A DNA stretch of 64,000 bases from Gemmatimonadetes bacterium T265 (GTDB lineage Bacteria > Gemmatimonadota > Gemmatimonadetes > Gemmatimonadales > Gemmatimonadaceae), in contig BPUI01000001.1 of the NCBI GenBank assembly GCA_019973575.1, positions 1,376,342 through 1,440,341 of the forward strand, in the 5' to 3' direction. Positions 28,274 to 63,364 of the stretch are shown one piece after another. Made by a program: the position numbers and the translations under genes. The first letter of the stretch is position 1. Each line of letters starts with the position of its first letter. Under the pieces are notes generated by a model. That model had not been told where the DNA came from. It ran no database searches and worked only from the letters and a program-made list of their open reading frames with translations.

Positions 28274-28485
28274 GCGGGGCTGGCGGGGCGGGTAGGGCGG
28301 CGGCCGGGTCGGGAACCGTGGGGGGGCTTGCCCTGCTCCTGTGGTGCAGCCGGCCGCCGTCTCCGTCCCGTGGCTCCGCTCCGGGGGTCTGCCCCGCTCC
28401 GCCCGGAACCGCCCCAACGACCTGCCCGCGTGCGCCCACCTGGCACGCCCCCCCCCCCACGCCCTACTCGCCCCGCCAGCCCCGC
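28274..28485. repeat. hairpin-bearing intergenic element, copy A
   Basis: Outer arms 28274-28299 and 28460-28485 are 26-bp inverted repeats with one G-U mismatch. The interior contains GCGGCGGCCGGGTCGGG (shared with copy B at 49745) and CGGAACCGCCCCAACGACCT (28404-28423, identical in copy C at 62117), followed by a further 30 bp resembling copy C. It fills the 321-bp gap before the PEBP gene. No coding sequence and no transposase are present. Confidence 0.7.
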
Positions 28486-31574: not shown

Positions 31575-31699
31575 GTCATCCTGAGCGCAGCGAAGGATCT
31601 TGCGTCCCGTGTGAGGGGTGAAGCACGCCAAGATGGACCGTCCCGGGCCCCGCGGTGCCGCGGTCCGCACACGAGATCCTTCGCTGCGCTCAGGATGAC
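31575..31699. repeat. palindromic intergenic repeat between regulator and kinase
   Basis: Arms 31575-31600 and 31674-31699 are perfect 26-bp inverted repeats separated by 73 bp. The arm word (GTCATCCTGAGCGCAGCGAA then GGATCT) resembles dispersed REP-like words I recall from intergenic DNA of several phyla. As RNA it would form a long hairpin between two genes of one system. It could lower kinase expression or stabilise the upstream message. Confidence 0.75.
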
Positions 31700-47436: not shown

Positions 47437-47898
47437 TCAGCCGAGATCCAGCCGGTACCGACAGGGTCCGCCCTCCCCCGCGACGAGCACCCCGCCGAGC
47501 CGCTCGCACGTCCGCCGCGACGCGGCGTTGTCCACGGCGCAGAGGATCCACAGCGGGTCGAGCCCGTGCGCGCGGGCGAGCGGAAGCAGGAGCCGCCCCG
47601 CACGCGCCGCGTACCCGCGGCCGCGCCACGCCGGCTCGACGAAGTACCCGACGTGCCCGGTCGAGCGGTCGAGCGCGCCGCCGAGGTCCACGCGCAGCTC
47701 GATCCCGCCGACGCGGCGGCCGCCGACCCGGAGCGAAAAGTGGTAGGCCGGGATCCACCCACGGCCCGGGTCCGCGGGCGAGCGGTAGTCGAGGGACAGC
47801 GTCAGGTCGCCGTCGCACAACGGGCCCGGATCGCGGAACGTGAACGGGGCGCGCAGATTCGCCACCCGCGCCGGCCGGCGCATCCTCCGACGCCTCAC
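47437..47898 (-). CDS. GNAT-family N-acetyltransferase
   Basis: 153 residues. Strands 'LTLSLDYRSP', 'YHFSLRVGGRRVGGIELRVDLG', then 'TGHVGYFVEPAWRGRGYAARAGRLLLPLAR' containing the acetyl-CoA loop (R-G-x-G-x-A), and 'PLWILCAVDNAASRRTCERLGG' give the complete GNAT fold. The RimJ/RimL-like subgroup is likely; substrate unknown. GTG start overlaps the TGA of the DNA ligase gene (GTGA), so it is coupled as the second gene of that unit. Confidence 0.85.
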   Translation of the reverse strand: MRRRRMRRPARVANLRAPFTFRDPGPLCDGDLTLSLDYRSPADPGRGWIPAYHFSLRVGGRRVGGIELRVDLGGALDRSTGHVGYFVEPAWRGRGYAARAGRLLLPLARAHGLDPLWILCAVDNAASRRTCERLGGVLVAGEGGPCRYRLDLG

Positions 47899-49610
47899 GC
47901 CCCGCCCTCCCCCGCGAGCGCGCGCACCGCGGCGAGCGTGTCCACCTCGGCCGCCGGCTTGTCGTCGCGCACCCGCAGGATGCGCGGGAAGCGGAGTGCG
48001 TACCCCGCCTTATGGCGCGCGCTCTTCTGCACCACGTCGAACGTGACCTCGAGCACCACCTCCGGCCGCACCTGCTGGTACCGCCCGAACTTCTGGACGG
48101 TGAGCCCTCGCAGCCGCTCGGTCAGCTCGGCGATCTCCGCGTCGGTGAGGCCGTTGTACGCCTTGCCGACCGTGAGCAGTGTCGGGTCGTCCTCCGACGC
48201 GCGCACGGCGAACGTGTAGTCGGAGAGAAACTTCGCGCGCCGCCCGTGCCCCCACTCCGCGCCGACGACCACGACGTCGAGCGTGGCGAGCGCCTTCTTG
48301 AGCTTGATCCACAGCTTGCCGCGGCGCCCCGGCGTGTACGGCGAGCCGAGCGCCTTCGCGATGATCCCCTCGTTCCCCGCCGCGCGTGCCTCCGCGAACG
48401 CGGCCTCGACCTCCGCCGCCGTCGCGACGAGCCGCCGCGGCGTGAGGCGCGCGTACAGCACCGGCCCCTGCGCCTCGGGCCAGGGGAGCGCCGCGAGGCG
48501 CGCCCGCCGCTCCTCGTAGGGCTCCTCGATCACCAGCGCCCCGTCCCAGGCGAGCGCGTCGTAGGCGACGAACTGCACCGGCACCTCCGCGCGGACCGCC
48601 GCGTCGGGCGTCTTGCGGCCGAGCCGGCGCTGCATGGCGGTGAACGGGAGCGCGCGCCGGGGGTCGGCGGGGTCGTAGGCGAGCAGCTCGCCGTCGAGGA
48701 TGACCCCCCCGCCTGTGCGCGCGCCTAACGCTTCCAGCGCGCCCGCGACCTCGGGGTAGCCGTGCGTGATCTCGTCGAGCGTGCGCGAGTAGAGGGCGGC
48801 GCGCACGGCGCCGCCCGCGCCCGGCCCGACGTGCGCCTGGGCGCGGATGCCGTCGTACTTGTCCTCGACCGCGAACGGCGCGGGGAGCGCCGCGGCGATC
48901 GCCTCCGCCGTCTCGAGCGGCTGGGCGAGCATGAACCCCACGGGGTGAAAGAGCGCGAGCCGCGCCTCGGCCAGCCGCCCGCCGCGCGCGAGCACCGCGA
49001 CCTCGCCGACGTCGCCGCGCAGCAGGTTGGCGTGGCGGACCTCGCCTAACGTCCCCCCGAACGCCCGCGCGAGCGCCTCCTCGACCTGCGCCTCCTTGAG
49101 CCCGATCCGCAGCTCGCCGCTGCCGAGCAGGAGCTTGACGGCGTACTGCGCCTCCGCCGGGCCCAACGCGGCGAGCAGGTCGCGCACCCGGTCGCGCTTC
49201 GCGTGGGCGCCGCGCGTGGCGGCGAGCGCGTCGAACGCGGCGGCGACCTCCGGGAGCGTCATCCCGCTCGGCGCGGGCGGCGGCTCGCGCTCCTCCCACA
49301 GCAGCCGCGCGACGTCGCCCAGGTCGCCCACCGCGACCACCCGCGGGTGCAGCGCCTCGCGCGTGGTGCCCGCCACGGCGCACAACGCGTCGCTCACCGC
49401 CGCGCCGCCGACGCTCGTCGTGCGCTGGTCGTGGCGCGGGAAGGGCAGGCCCGAGAAGAAGCGCGCCGCGACCGCGAGCGCCGAGTCGTCGAGCGTCGGG
49501 AAGTAGGCCTCGAGCGCGGCGCTCTTTTCGAGGCGTTTGGTCGTCGCACGCACCGCGTCGGCGGTGGCGCACCAGCGCTGGAAGGTCGCGGGAGGGGGCG
49601 CGTCGGTCAC
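47895..49610 (-). CDS. ATP-dependent DNA ligase
   Basis: 571 residues. N-terminal DNA-binding domain of the ligase_A_N type (about 20-215: 'LPFPRHDQRTTSVGG', 'KRDRVRDLLAALGPAEAQYAVKLLLG', 'LRIGLKEAQVEEALARAFGG'). The adenylation domain has motif I 'EDKYDGIRAQAHV' with nucleophile K251, motif III 'VILDGELLAYDP', motif IV 'NEGIIAKALGSPYTPG' and motif V 'LWIKLKKALATLDVVVVGAEWGHG'. A C-terminal OB fold follows ('FLSDYTFAVRA', 'GLTVQKFGRYQQVRPEVVLEVTFDVVQKSARH'). Seals nicks in repair; bacteria normally rely on NAD-dependent LigA for replication. GTG 49610 chosen as start of the conserved domain. A repeat element lies 58 bp upstream. Confidence 0.93.
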   Translation of the reverse strand: MTDAPPPATFQRWCATADAVRATTKRLEKSAALEAYFPTLDDSALAVAARFFSGLPFPRHDQRTTSVGGAAVSDALCAVAGTTREALHPRVVAVGDLGDVARLLWEEREPPPAPSGMTLPEVAAAFDALAATRGAHAKRDRVRDLLAALGPAEAQYAVKLLLGSGELRIGLKEAQVEEALARAFGGTLGEVRHANLLRGDVGEVAVLARGGRLAEARLALFHPVGFMLAQPLETAEAIAAALPAPFAVEDKYDGIRAQAHVGPGAGGAVRAALYSRTLDEITHGYPEVAGALEALGARTGGGVILDGELLAYDPADPRRALPFTAMQRRLGRKTPDAAVRAEVPVQFVAYDALAWDGALVIEEPYEERRARLAALPWPEAQGPVLYARLTPRRLVATAAEVEAAFAEARAAGNEGIIAKALGSPYTPGRRGKLWIKLKKALATLDVVVVGAEWGHGRRAKFLSDYTFAVRASEDDPTLLTVGKAYNGLTDAEIAELTERLRGLTVQKFGRYQQVRPEVVLEVTFDVVQKSARHKAGYALRFPRILRVRDDKPAAEVDTLAAVRALAGEGGA

Positions 49611-49667
49611 GACACGGAGGGAGGCAGGACGCGCACCAGCGGGAGGAATCGGGAGGGCGGAGCGGGG

Positions 49668-49872
49668 CGTTCGGGGCGGGAAGGGCGACGGGTGGGGCAG
49701 AGCCAGCGGGGCGACACCCACGGCGCCCATGACGCGGGGCGGCAGCGGCGGCCGGGTCGGGCACGGCCGGGGAGAGCTGCCCCAACCCCTGTTGTGCAAG
49801 CGGCCGCTCGTCCCGTCCCGTGCGTTCGCCCCGCCACCCACGCCCCACCCGTCGCCCTTCCCGCCCCGAACG
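49668..49872. repeat. hairpin-bearing intergenic element, copy B
   Basis: Outer arms 49668-49698 and 49842-49872 are a perfect 31-bp inverted repeat around a 143-bp interior. The interior shares GCGGCGGCCGGGTCGGG (49745-49761) with copy A, and GCGGGGCGACACCC and GACGCGGGGCGG with copy C; the outer CGTTCGGGGC is also in copy C. It occupies the 298-bp gap between the DNA ligase start and the flavoprotein stop. No coding content is visible. Confidence 0.75.
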
Positions 49873-49908
49873 ATCCGTCGCTCTACCCGCCCGGCCAAAC
49901 ACCCTCCG

Positions 49909-51408
49909 TTAGGCCCTCCCCCCGAGCACCCCTTCTGCCGCGAGCATTCCCCCCCTCGCCGCCCCTTCGAGCGAACTCGAATGCGCCGTCTCGCTCGCCC
50001 GCCACAACCCCGGCAGCTCCGTCCCCCCCCCCGTCCTCCTCCCCTTCGTCCCCGGCGGCTGCGCGAACTGCGCGTACCCCACCCGCTCCACCGCCACCGG
50101 GGCCAGCGCCGGCACCGGCCCGAGTCCCGCCGCGCGGCGCATCCCCGCCAGCTCCGCGAGCATCCGCGCCGCGAGCACGTCGTCGTCGAGCGCGGCCGCC
50201 GCCCCGACCGCGCTCGCGGCGAGCAGGTGGCGGCCGTGCGGCGCGTCCGCGGCCGCGTACTCGGGCGCGACGTCGGTGAGCGTGACCGCGTGGCTCACCG
50301 CCGGCCGCGGCTCGCCCCCAGTCGACGCGCCGTGCTCCGCGTGCTCGTGGCGCTGCTCGTGGCTCCGCTCGTGGCCCGACGCGTTGAGCCAGATCGCCCG
50401 CCCGGGGAGCGGCGCCTCGTGCGCGGCGAAGTAGAGCGTCGTCGAGCCGAGCGCGTCGGGGCGCCCGTCGAGGGCGACGCCGGCGGTCGCGGCGAGGCGG
50501 GCCGCAGCCGGCGGCTCGGCGGCGAGCACGACGTCGGCGGCCGCGAGGTGCTCGCCGTCGCTCGTCACCACGCCCCGCGCGCGCCCGCCGTCCGCGCGCA
50601 CCGCGGCCACCGTCACGCGCGTGCGCAGCGCGCCGGGCGGCAGCCCCGCCGCGAGCCGCGCGGCCACCGCGCCGATCCCCGCCGCCGGGACGACCGCGTC
50701 TCCCTCGGACAGCATCTTGAACGTGAAGAGCAGGATCGCCGCGCTCGTGCCGAGGGCGGGGTCGAGCAGGATGCCGCCGTAGAACGGCGCGAAGAAGCGC
50801 GCGATCGCGTGGGGCGTGAAGCCGCGCGCGGCGAGGAACGCGCGGGCCGTCGTCCGGTCGTAGCGGTCCGCGAAGCACTCGTCGACCGAGAGCGACGTCG
50901 CGAGCCGCTTGAGGGCGAGCACGCGCAGCTTGTCGCCGAGCGGGAGTGCGCGGGCGAGCGCGGTGCCGGCGAGCATGCGCAGGCTGTCGAGCGGCGCGCG
51001 GAGCGGGGCGCGGAACGCGTCGCCCACGTACGACGCCCCGCCGGCCGTGACGACGCGGGCGGCGGGCGCGAACCGGCGGAGCGCGAGGCCCGCGTCGTCC
51101 TCCCGCGCGTCGCCCGCGAGGGGGGCGAGGCCCAGCGCGGCGCCTAACACCGGGTACGCGGTGAAGAGCACTTGGAAGCCGCGGTCGACCGTGTAGCCGT
51201 CGACGATTCGCGAGCGCGCGCGCCCGCCCGGCTCCGCTTCGCGCTCGAGCACGAGCACCCGCCGCCCGGCCCGGTGGAGCGCGCGGGCGCAGACGAGGCC
51301 CGCGATCCCGGCGCCGACGACGATCACCGGGTCGTCGATCACCGGGTCGTCGATCACCGGGTCGTCGTCCGGCGTCACGCGCCTCGGCGGCGCCGGCTGC
51401 GACGGCAT
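49909..51408 (-). CDS. FAD-dependent amine-oxidase/desaturase-like oxidoreductase
   Basis: 499 residues. Dinucleotide-binding start 'VIVVGAGIAGLVCARALHRAGRRVLVLEREAEPGGRARS' (GxGxxG and the downstream GG-R), 'TVDRGFQVLF', 'FFAPFYGGILLDPALGTS' and a C-terminal FAD-contact 'LPGLWRASETAHSSSLEGAARGGMLAAE'. The overall layout matches the NAD(P)-binding Rossmann/amine oxidase family that includes protoporphyrinogen oxidases and phytoene desaturases. Substrate unknown. Before the Rossmann fold the peptide DDPVI is repeated three times, encoded by a 15-bp tandem repeat. A His/Glu-rich insertion (ASGHERSHEQRHEHAEHGAS) sits around residue 345. Confidence 0.85.
   Translation of the reverse strand: MPSQPAPPRRVTPDDDPVIDDPVIDDPVIVVGAGIAGLVCARALHRAGRRVLVLEREAEPGGRARSRIVDGYTVDRGFQVLFTAYPVLGAALGLAPLAGDAREDDAGLALRRFAPAARVVTAGGASYVGDAFRAPLRAPLDSLRMLAGTALARALPLGDKLRVLALKRLATSLSVDECFADRYDRTTARAFLAARGFTPHAIARFFAPFYGGILLDPALGTSAAILLFTFKMLSEGDAVVPAAGIGAVAARLAAGLPPGALRTRVTVAAVRADGGRARGVVTSDGEHLAAADVVLAAEPPAAARLAATAGVALDGRPDALGSTTLYFAAHEAPLPGRAIWLNASGHERSHEQRHEHAEHGASTGGEPRPAVSHAVTLTDVAPEYAAADAPHGRHLLAASAVGAAAALDDDVLAARMLAELAGMRRAAGLGPVPALAPVAVERVGYAQFAQPPGTKGRRTGGGTELPGLWRASETAHSSSLEGAARGGMLAAEGVLGGRA
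51321..51365. repeat. 15-bp tandem repeat within the flavoprotein gene
   Basis: Three perfect copies of CGATCACCGGGTCGT encode the DDPVI repeat just ahead of the FAD-binding loop. Copy number could vary by slippage without breaking the frame. Confidence 0.9.
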
Positions 51409-51867: not shown

Positions 51868-51911
51868 TAGTGCGTGCGGTGGGGAGCGGGGGTGGTGGGG
51901 CGGGGGACTAC

Positions 51912-52111
51912 GCCGTTGATGGGGCGCTGTTGGTGTAACGCTGTTGACGGGGCGCTGTTGACGGGGCGCTGTTGATGGGGCGCTGTTGAAACGGCGGGTA
52001 CAACCGCGGCCGCGCCCGGACGCGGATGCGTCTCGTCCCGCGCCGTTCCAACAGCGCGGCACCAACAGCGTTACATCAACAGCGCCCCATCAACAGCGCG
52101 GCACCAACAGC
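51912..52111. repeat. 14-bp-periodic array arranged as a large inverted repeat
   Basis: GCTGTTG (first copy GCCGTTG) starts at 51912, 51926, 51940, 51954, 51968 and 51982, always 14 bp apart. After about 50 bp the complement CAACAGC ends at 52055, 52069, 52083, 52097 and 52111, again 14 bp apart. The 7 bases between cores vary (AYGGGGC, GTGTAAC, GTGCCGC, AAACGGC). The two halves can pair into a stem of about 70 bp. There is no coding sequence between 51868 and 52156. Confidence 0.9.
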
Positions 52112-61415: not shown

Positions 61416-61856
61416 TTAGAGGCTGGCCTGCAACTGCCGGACGAACAGTAGGTCGAGCAGAAACAGCGCGGCGCCCTGCACGATCACGCCGAGCCCGGCG
61501 CCCACGGGCGCGTAGCGGCGGCCGAAGAGCCAGCCGCAGAGGGCGAGCGTGACGCCGACGCCGATGTACCCGGCATCGAGGCCGAGGTTGAGCCAGAGGA
61601 CGCGGTCGAGCTGGCGGGCGCCGGCGTAGTCGCGGAGGGCGAGGCCGCGCTGAGCCCAGAGAGCGAGGGCGAGGTCGATGGCGCCCCAGGCGACGGTCTG
61701 GATCGCGAAGTGACGGAGGAGGGAGGGAGAGCCGGCGGTGCGCTGGAGGGCCTGGAGGGCGAGGAGAAGAGTGCCGGCGACGACGCTCCCGGCGCCCCAG
61801 ATCAGGAGGCGGAGGAGGTGGGAGCGTTCGAGGCTCAGGAGGGTGTCGGCGAACAT
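61416..61856 (-). CDS. small four-helix membrane protein
   Basis: 146 residues with hydrophobic segments 'LLRLLIWGAGSVVAGTLLLAL', 'FAIQTVAWGAIDLALALWA', 'LNLGLDAGYIGVGVTLALCG' and 'GAGLGVIVQGAALFLLDLLF'. The pattern 'AWGAIDLALAL..' and 'NLGLDAGYIGVG' repeats across a family of hypothetical membrane proteins, but I cannot name a function. 32 bp downstream of the kinase start on the same strand, so it may precede the kinase in one transcript. Element copy C lies upstream. Confidence 0.65.
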   Translation of the reverse strand: MFADTLLSLERSHLLRLLIWGAGSVVAGTLLLALQALQRTAGSPSLLRHFAIQTVAWGAIDLALALWAQRGLALRDYAGARQLDRVLWLNLGLDAGYIGVGVTLALCGWLFGRRYAPVGAGLGVIVQGAALFLLDLLFVRQLQASL

Positions 61857-61885
61857 GAAACTCGTGGGGGCGGAAGGCGGGGCGG

Positions 61886-62206
61886 GGCGTTCGGGGCAGG
61901 CAGGGCGGGGCGACACCCGCGACACCCGCGACGCCCGTGACGCGGGGCGGGACCGGCGGCTCGCGGCGGGATCGTCTGCGAGCGGCAACGATCGACGTGG
62001 GCGGCCGGTGCCCGGAGCGTGCCGCCGCGGACGGGGTACCGGGAATGTACGAATCGTGGGCACATTCGCCGTTCCCGTTCCGTGACTCCGCCCCGATTGC
62101 TCTGCCCCGCGGTGTTCGGAACCGCCCCAACGACCTCCCCGCGAGCGCCCACCTGGCACGCCCGCCCACCCACGCCCGACCTCTCGCTCTCCGCGCCCCG
62201 AACGCC
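61886..62206. repeat. hairpin-bearing intergenic element, copy C
   Basis: Outer words GGCGTTCGGGGC (61886-61897) and GCCCCGAACGCC (62195-62206) are perfect inverted repeats. The interior contains CGGAACCGCCCCAACGACCT (62117-62136), identical to copy A, with about 60 bp of close similarity around it, and GCGGGGCGACACCC plus TGACGCGGGGCGG in common with copy B. It fills the gap between the divergent membrane-protein and exonuclease genes, ending 28 bp before the latter's ATG. Confidence 0.7.
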
Positions 62207-62233
62207 GCGCCCCGCCGTTTCCACGACCGGCTC

Positions 62234-63364
62234 ATGCTCCTTCGTCTGACCTCGTCGGGCCTGTACTCTCCCCCTTCCGCGCTCCACCTGGACGCGCGCG
62301 ACGCCCCGGGCACGGTCTTCGTCTCGCACGCTCATAGCGACCACTGCTCCCGGGCCGCGCGCATCCTCTGCACCCCGGAGACCGCCGCGCTGCACGACGC
62401 CCGGCGCGGCGCGCGCGACGCGCTGACGCTGCGCTTTGGCGAGACCGCGGCCGTGGGCGACGCGGCGGTCACGCTCACCCCCGCCGGCCACGCGCTCGGT
62501 TCCGCGATGCTCGTCGCCGAATCGGCGGAGGGGCGACTCGCGTACACCGGTGACTACAAGCTGCGCCCCAACCCGTTCTCGCCGCCGGTGACCATCCCGC
62601 GCGTCGACGAGCTGGTAATGGAGTGCACGTTCGGCGAGCCGCGCTACCGGTTTCCGCCCGAGCCCGAGCTGATCGAGCGCCTGTTCCGCTTCGTCGACGA
62701 GAGCCTCGCCGAGGGCGCGACGCCGGTGCTGCTCGCCTACGCGTTAGGCAAGGGGCAGGAGGTGCTCTGGCACCTGACGCGCCGCGGGTACGACGTGGTG
62801 CTGCACGGCGCGATCGCCAATCTGTGCGACCTGCACGTGCGGTTGGGCTACGACTTTCCCGGCCCGGGCGCGTGGGGGCGGTACGAGCGCGGCAAGGTCG
62901 GGCGGCGGGTCCTGCTCACCACGCCCGGCACCCGCAAGACCGCGATGGTGCAGGGGCTGGAGCGCAAGCGCGTCTGCCACCTCACGGGGTGGGCGCTGCA
63001 CCCGGGCGCGCACAACATGTACCGCGACTGCGACCTCGTGCTCCCCCTGTCCGACCACGCCGACTTCGACGAGCTGGTGCGGACGGCGGTCGAGAGCGGC
63101 GCGCGCAAGGTGTGGACGGTGCACGGGCCGGCGTCGTTCGCGGGCGAGTTGCGCGCGCGCGGCGTCGACGCGGAGCACCTCGCCGAGCATCCGCAGAGTG
63201 CGGGGAGCGCAGAGCGCGCGGGGGAGGAGGACGACGGCGGCGCGCGCGAGGGCGGCGCACCGGCGCGGCCGTCGAAACCCGCGGCGAAGGCCCGGCGGCG
63301 TACCGCGGCGGCGCCCGCGCCGGGCGGTGCCGCAGACGATCGGCAGATCGGGCTGGATCTGTGA
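62234..63364 (+). CDS. ligase-associated-type MBL-fold DNA exonuclease
   Basis: 376 residues. Metallo-beta-lactamase/beta-CASP fold: 'VFVSHAHSDHC' (HxHxDH), 'LTPAGHALGSAMLV', 'LAYTGDYKLRPNPFSPP', 'VMECTFGEPRYRFPPE', 'LLAYALGKGQEVLWHL' and 'VLPLSDHADFDELVR' (terminal SDHxD). This layout is that of the putative exonucleases found next to ATP-dependent DNA ligases in bacterial repair clusters. Here the ligase is 12.6 kb away but both carry the same intergenic element upstream. The last 60 residues are a disordered, charged tail (Glu/Asp then Lys/Arg/Ala). DNA-repair role is inferred from the family. Confidence 0.85.
   Translation: MLLRLTSSGLYSPPSALHLDARDAPGTVFVSHAHSDHCSRAARILCTPETAALHDARRGARDALTLRFGETAAVGDAAVTLTPAGHALGSAMLVAESAEGRLAYTGDYKLRPNPFSPPVTIPRVDELVMECTFGEPRYRFPPEPELIERLFRFVDESLAEGATPVLLAYALGKGQEVLWHLTRRGYDVVLHGAIANLCDLHVRLGYDFPGPGAWGRYERGKVGRRVLLTTPGTRKTAMVQGLERKRVCHLTGWALHPGAHNMYRDCDLVLPLSDHADFDELVRTAVESGARKVWTVHGPASFAGELRARGVDAEHLAEHPQSAGSAERAGEEDDGGAREGGAPARPSKPAAKARRRTAAAPAPGGAADDRQIGLDL

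Follow-up and report, generated by a model that had tools for sequence, protein, structure and literature searches.

Copies A, B and C and their gene neighbours

The window that we analyzed, a 64,000-nucleotide stretch of the genome of Gemmatimonadetes bacterium T265, contains three intergenic copies (A, B and C) of a hairpin-armed element. Copy B lies between genes for a flavin amine oxidoreductase and an ATP-dependent DNA ligase, copy C lies between a DUF6992 gene and a gene for an MBL-fold exonuclease-like protein, and copy A starts 5 bp past the stop codon (28268) of the plus-strand gene on its left (Table 1).

Table 1. Element copies and neighbouring genes in the window; consensus positions refer to the 334-bp family consensus
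Feature	Position	Strand	Remarks
Copy A	28274..28485	+	Most of left arm missing; consensus 122-325 matched at 28283-28484
Most conserved family word, GGAACCGCCCCAACGACCT, inner right arm	28406..28424	+	Approximate position within copy A
Copy B	49663..49877	+	Internal deletion: consensus 221-283 (63 core bases) and inner left arm gone
B left arm	49668..49698	+	31/31 paired
B right arm	49842..49872	+	Mirror of 49668-49698
Copy C, left element piece	61880..61960	+	Consensus 65-140
Copy C, non-element interior (~110 bp)	61961..62072	.	No match to other copies; divergent intergenic DNA between DUF6992 gene and MBL exonuclease
Copy C, right element piece	62073..62204	+	Consensus 198-329, 88% identical
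ATP-dependent DNA ligase, downstream neighbour of B	47895..49610	-	Pfam PF01068, PF04675, PF04679
Flavin amine oxidoreductase	49909..51378	-	Pfam PF01593; B located 32 bp beyond the stop codon
DUF6992 gene to the left of C	61416..61856	-	Pfam PF22503
MBL-fold exonuclease-like gene to the right of C	62234..63364	+	Pfam PF12706

The arms and shared interior words described for the three copies in the initial annotation were all found where it had placed them, including the full set of 31 pairs between the arms of B and the pairing of 28274-28299 with 28460-28485 in A (26 positions, one mismatch). The outer arms of C were weaker (61876-62216, 22 positions). The interiors of A and C matched at 77% over 151 bp (E 2e-27 against the window), those of B and C at 77% over 111 bp, and those of A and B at 72% over 145 bp; the pieces of B that match the consensus are 49663-49698, 49676-49833 and 49827-49877. 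The span previously assigned to C (61886-62206) holds at its two flanks, which are element sequence, but not in the ~110 bp between them, which are unrelated to the consensus. Likewise, A and B had been described as lying upstream of genes, but B also follows its neighbour's stop codon and A lies just past that of the gene on its left, and a description as downstream of a gene end fits both at least as well.

The ligase and exonuclease genes had been said to be adjacent in other bacteria, and this was correct in three relatives (L103-L105). Exonuclease relatives, which are 67-69% identical, directly precede the ligase, and in two of the three relatives with this arrangement the DUF6992 gene is divergent to the exonuclease gene. 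In the T265 genome, DUF6992 and the exonuclease are still together and the ligase is 12 kb off. This ligase is closest to that of Roseisolibacter sp. H3M3-2 (80%), by which the genome is assigned to Gemmatimonadaceae. Copy B adjoins the ligase side of the rearrangement that separates these two genes.

Size, anatomy and gene context of the family

As the initial annotation had proposed, the element is dispersed: A, B and C belong to a family of ~28 copies in their own genome, a count of 28 loci that leaves aside a 29th match resembling noise (C3:47893) and may miss copies weaker than the scored candidates. The shared interior 19-mer GGAACCGCCCCAACGACCT was found at 7 sites exactly and at 27 sites in total with up to 3 mismatches in the 5.63-Mb genome, versus 4 for the reversed control, and several of these sites form inverted pairs ~172 bp apart. 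A 334-bp consensus built from the complete copies retrieved full-length copies with E values down to 5e-126. These 19-mer counts and consensus matches contradict the possibility, raised at the outset, that GC-rich low complexity explains the interior similarity.

The consensus is nearly palindromic, with outer and inner inverted arms (~100 nt per side) and an asymmetric core of ~130 bp, and as a whole it aligned with its own reverse complement at ~75%. Ten of the 28 copies are nearly complete, the others being truncated, internally deleted or reduced to arms, and no gene was called within any of them. For complete copies, the folding energies ranged from about -260 to about -330 kcal/mol, with z scores of -6 to -18 versus dinucleotide shuffles. 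Many arms share an outer limit near GCGTCGCGGG, and past this limit some copies go on pairing through copy-specific sequence; at C1:2344128 this outer pairing is 28 nt long and covers the 3' end of the right-hand gene, with its last codons and stop codon. Two copies at unrelated loci, C1:932983 and C1:1441929, have 98.2% identity across 223 bases of the core, which indicates recent copying.

Contig C1, which makes up 53% of the assembly, carries 27 of the 28 copies (binomial 5e-7). An explanation of this bias by replicons, with C1 as the chromosome and the other contigs as plasmids, was weakened by the presence of both 16S rRNA genes on C2. The DDE_Tnp_1 transposase genes lean the opposite way, with one of eight on C1.

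Gene context was determined with a home-made codon-usage gene caller and not from curated annotation. By this caller, 18 of the 28 copies separate convergent genes, typically at a distance of 0-50 bp from each stop codon, nine separate tandem genes, and C alone separates divergent ones. Convergent gaps account for ~5% of the sampled non-element intergenic bases, and the resulting enrichment (binomial 1e-16 by length and 1e-7 by gap count; Fisher 1e-8 by gap count) applies to loci that were picked around the copies. Convergent gaps free of the element have a median length of 28 bp. At C1:660848 and C1:1300495, both outside the window, the neighbouring gene takes its stop codon and its protein's C-terminal residues from an arm of the element (protein ends ...RVQRGGESDG and ...RVVRGGQSDG).

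The location of B and C directly upstream of two genes that are neighbours in relatives would fit a cis-regulatory RNA common to the ligase and the exonuclease. However, no fewer than 25 further copies are found next to unrelated genes and mostly on the 3' side of the two flanking genes, no Rfam match was found within the window at the gathering score, B is internally deleted and the centre of C is foreign, and we regard such an RNA as highly improbable. The particular connection with the ligase and exonuclease that had been drawn from these two copies does not extend to the family, the majority of whose members lie between unrelated convergent genes; their position upstream of this pair is a sampling accident.

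Other hairpin families were also observed. Positions 31575-31699 of the window hold a separate intergenic repeat with GTCATCCTGAGCGCAGCGAAGGATCT arms (26/26 paired, 73-nt loop), of which a second copy lies elsewhere in the genome (L158 16527-16665). A third family, composed of iterated CGCTGTTGG / CCAACAGCG words, occupies 51911-52098 and is also present at C1:935121-935324 and L161 15728-15868. Among relatives, G015 and G066 appear to be Roseisolibacter-like and G016 Gemmatirosa-like. Long intergenic hairpins with almost perfect pairing, built from short iterated words, are numerous in G015 and G016, where they occur in ~21-29% of the sampled convergent gaps; the words differ between genomes (examples are L145 2075-2181, L144 3255-3373, L136 4936-5013 and L137 10838-10937). 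The family itself gave no match above noise-level scores in 58 related genomes, and no exact 25-mer match was found in genome and viral contig collections.

Possible mobility and comparison with known repeats

A MITE-like element was one of two options offered by the initial annotation, and the terminal inverted repeats, 334-bp length, lack of coding sequence and dispersal of the family agree with it. Target-site duplications and an autonomous partner with the same ends, which it had suggested looking for, were not found: inspection, with no formal test, revealed no consistent direct repeat flanking the copies that retain both ends, no distant pair of element ends flanked a gene, and element ends near the eight DDE_Tnp_1 loci gave only noise (families surveyed: DDE_Tnp_1 and Y1_Tnp).

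Bacterial MITEs such as RUP, NEMIS, Chunjie and QMITE are non-coding, 50-500 bp long and bounded by terminal inverted repeats, and frequently occur as partial copies (PMC10969869). The family shares their size class, paired inverted ends and lack of coding capacity, but neither a target duplication nor a parent insertion sequence (IS) with common ends was found. A classical IS-derived MITE, whose ends are recognized by a transposase in trans with formation of target-site duplications, would account for the long terminal repeats of a gene-free element with dispersed, variable copies. Considering the missing duplications, the lack of any distant end pair enclosing a gene and the noise at the DDE_Tnp_1 loci, we judge this origin to be quite unlikely, a possible variant being that the transposase is extinct or unsampled.

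REP units are 20-40 bp long; in convergent contexts they are found <20 bp from the 3' end of each flanking gene, and in tandem contexts near the end of the upstream gene (PMC3733652). The family is likewise found at gene ends, mostly in convergent and tandem contexts. It differs from REPs and REPINs in its length of ~334 bp and in that a search of its own genome, in which the controls were positive, revealed no RAYT (Y1_Tnp) gene.

YPAL elements insert just past stop codons, often at terminator-like sequences. These elements (YPAL / RU-2) of Yersinia are intergenic, palindromic and miniature, are ~168 bp long with target duplications of 3-26 bp, have targets that span or abut dyad symmetry, and are known from both empty and filled sites (PMC2229807). 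Compared by description, the family resembles YPAL in being intergenic and palindromic, and differs in its length of ~334 bp, its outer inverted arms and the lack of a duplication by inspection. The family sits in the genome like YPAL or REP elements but corresponds to the full definition of no named family, and a literature search found no published description of such repeats in Gemmatimonadota.

Arm pairing, orthologous gaps and origin of the family

The covariation analysis that had been proposed for the arms was performed with the 10 complete copies, and both-sided (compensatory) changes were found in 16 of 70 arm pairs, versus 4.1 in shuffles, none of 500 being as high; with the most divergent copy left out, there were 8 such pairs versus 3.0 expected. 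Furthermore, the two arms of one copy agreed at 85.9%, versus 81.0% for arms of different copies (permutation p 0.0016), and concordant double deviations of the arms numbered 29, versus ~3 expected.

If pairing were selected in RNA, G-U would be tolerated and A-C would not on the transcribed strand, whereas a DNA-level process would leave G-U about equal to A-C. The latter was observed: the GU:AC ratio was 24:32 on one strand of unselected family arms, and for hairpins in tandem contexts, read on the transcribed strand, it was 6:5 (T265), 29:30 (G015) and 13:17 (G016). The pairs chosen by RNAalifold in a structure-selected alignment gave 29 GU versus 15 AC, a count that we set aside because this choice of pairs favours GU columns. 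The earlier reading of preserved pairing as selected structure is not supported, as far as RNA is concerned, by the unselected stems, in which G-U is not in excess of A-C, and we infer that the data favour DNA-level copying of the arms by template switching over RNA selection. Documented outcomes of template switching include new hairpins and changes on both sides of a stem (PMC8794818) as well as homogenized arms (PMC8604942), and the patterns seen here point to such homogenization.

Five element-bearing convergent pairs could be traced into relatives. At C1:351622, where the genes putatively encode Lon and DUF445 proteins, unrelated long hairpins were present in 3/3 relatives. Hairpins were found for the C1:161351 pair in G016 and G015, with a gap of -4 bp in G066, and for the C1:468383 pair in G015 and G066, with a gap of 7 bp in G016; the C1:794794 pair has imperfect hairpins in G015 and none in G016 (161 bp), and the G016 gap for the C1:58437 pair is 35 bp. 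Altogether, a hairpin was seen by eye in 8 of 12 orthologous gaps, and the automatic threshold behind the ~25% base rate was passed in only 6 of the 12 (p about 0.06). The element-free convergent pairs intended as controls were not syntenic in relatives and hence gave no usable control, and the excess, without a matched control, is suggestive only. Judging by the short gaps of -4, 7 and 35 bp, these sites can do without the element.

Convergent gaps with family copies may be hotspots for hairpin insertion. We also consider it doubtful, if conceivable, that some convergent pairs keep a slot for a long hairpin across genera, filled by the active hairpin family of each lineage, such that structure and position persist without sequence homology. 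We also judge unlikely a selected bidirectional 3'-end structure, in which the hairpin would terminate or protect both convergent transcripts and RNA selection would keep the arms paired. The proximity of copies to both stop codons (tens of bases), the very stable folds and the sequence-unrelated long hairpins in the same Lon/DUF445 gap of three relatives are consistent with such a role. However, the transcribed strands show no G-U excess, only 6.5% of the sampled convergent gaps in the T265 genome contain a long inverted repeat, and the shortest orthologous gaps manage without a hairpin. Moreover, the hairpin followed by a T-run that defines an intrinsic terminator was not seen, as none of 56 hairpin exits had a T-run of at least 4 and no terminator-like site was found in A, B or C.

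The family is probably a lineage-restricted, non-autonomous, nearly palindromic repeat of ~334 bp, similar to MITE, REP and YPAL elements, that has spread to the 3' ends of genes, above all into convergent gaps, and whose copies then decay by internal deletion. Because no target-site duplication and no autonomous relative were found, movement is deduced only from dispersal, and the spread would have occurred by some route of transposition or copying. Copies would be tolerated where harm is small, and template switching at DNA replication would keep the arms complementary and sometimes extend them into copy-specific flanking DNA. Transcripts entering from the gene on either side would run into a hairpin of ~100 pairs. 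This hairpin could impede exonucleases or serve as a substrate for RNase III; consequences of this kind are probably by-products.

Covariation is often read as proof of a functional RNA, and here strong covariation of the arms occurs without a G-U preference. The family, together with the hairpins of the Roseisolibacter-like and Gemmatirosa-like genomes, provides a natural setting for testing whether covariation like that of RNA can arise through template switching alone.
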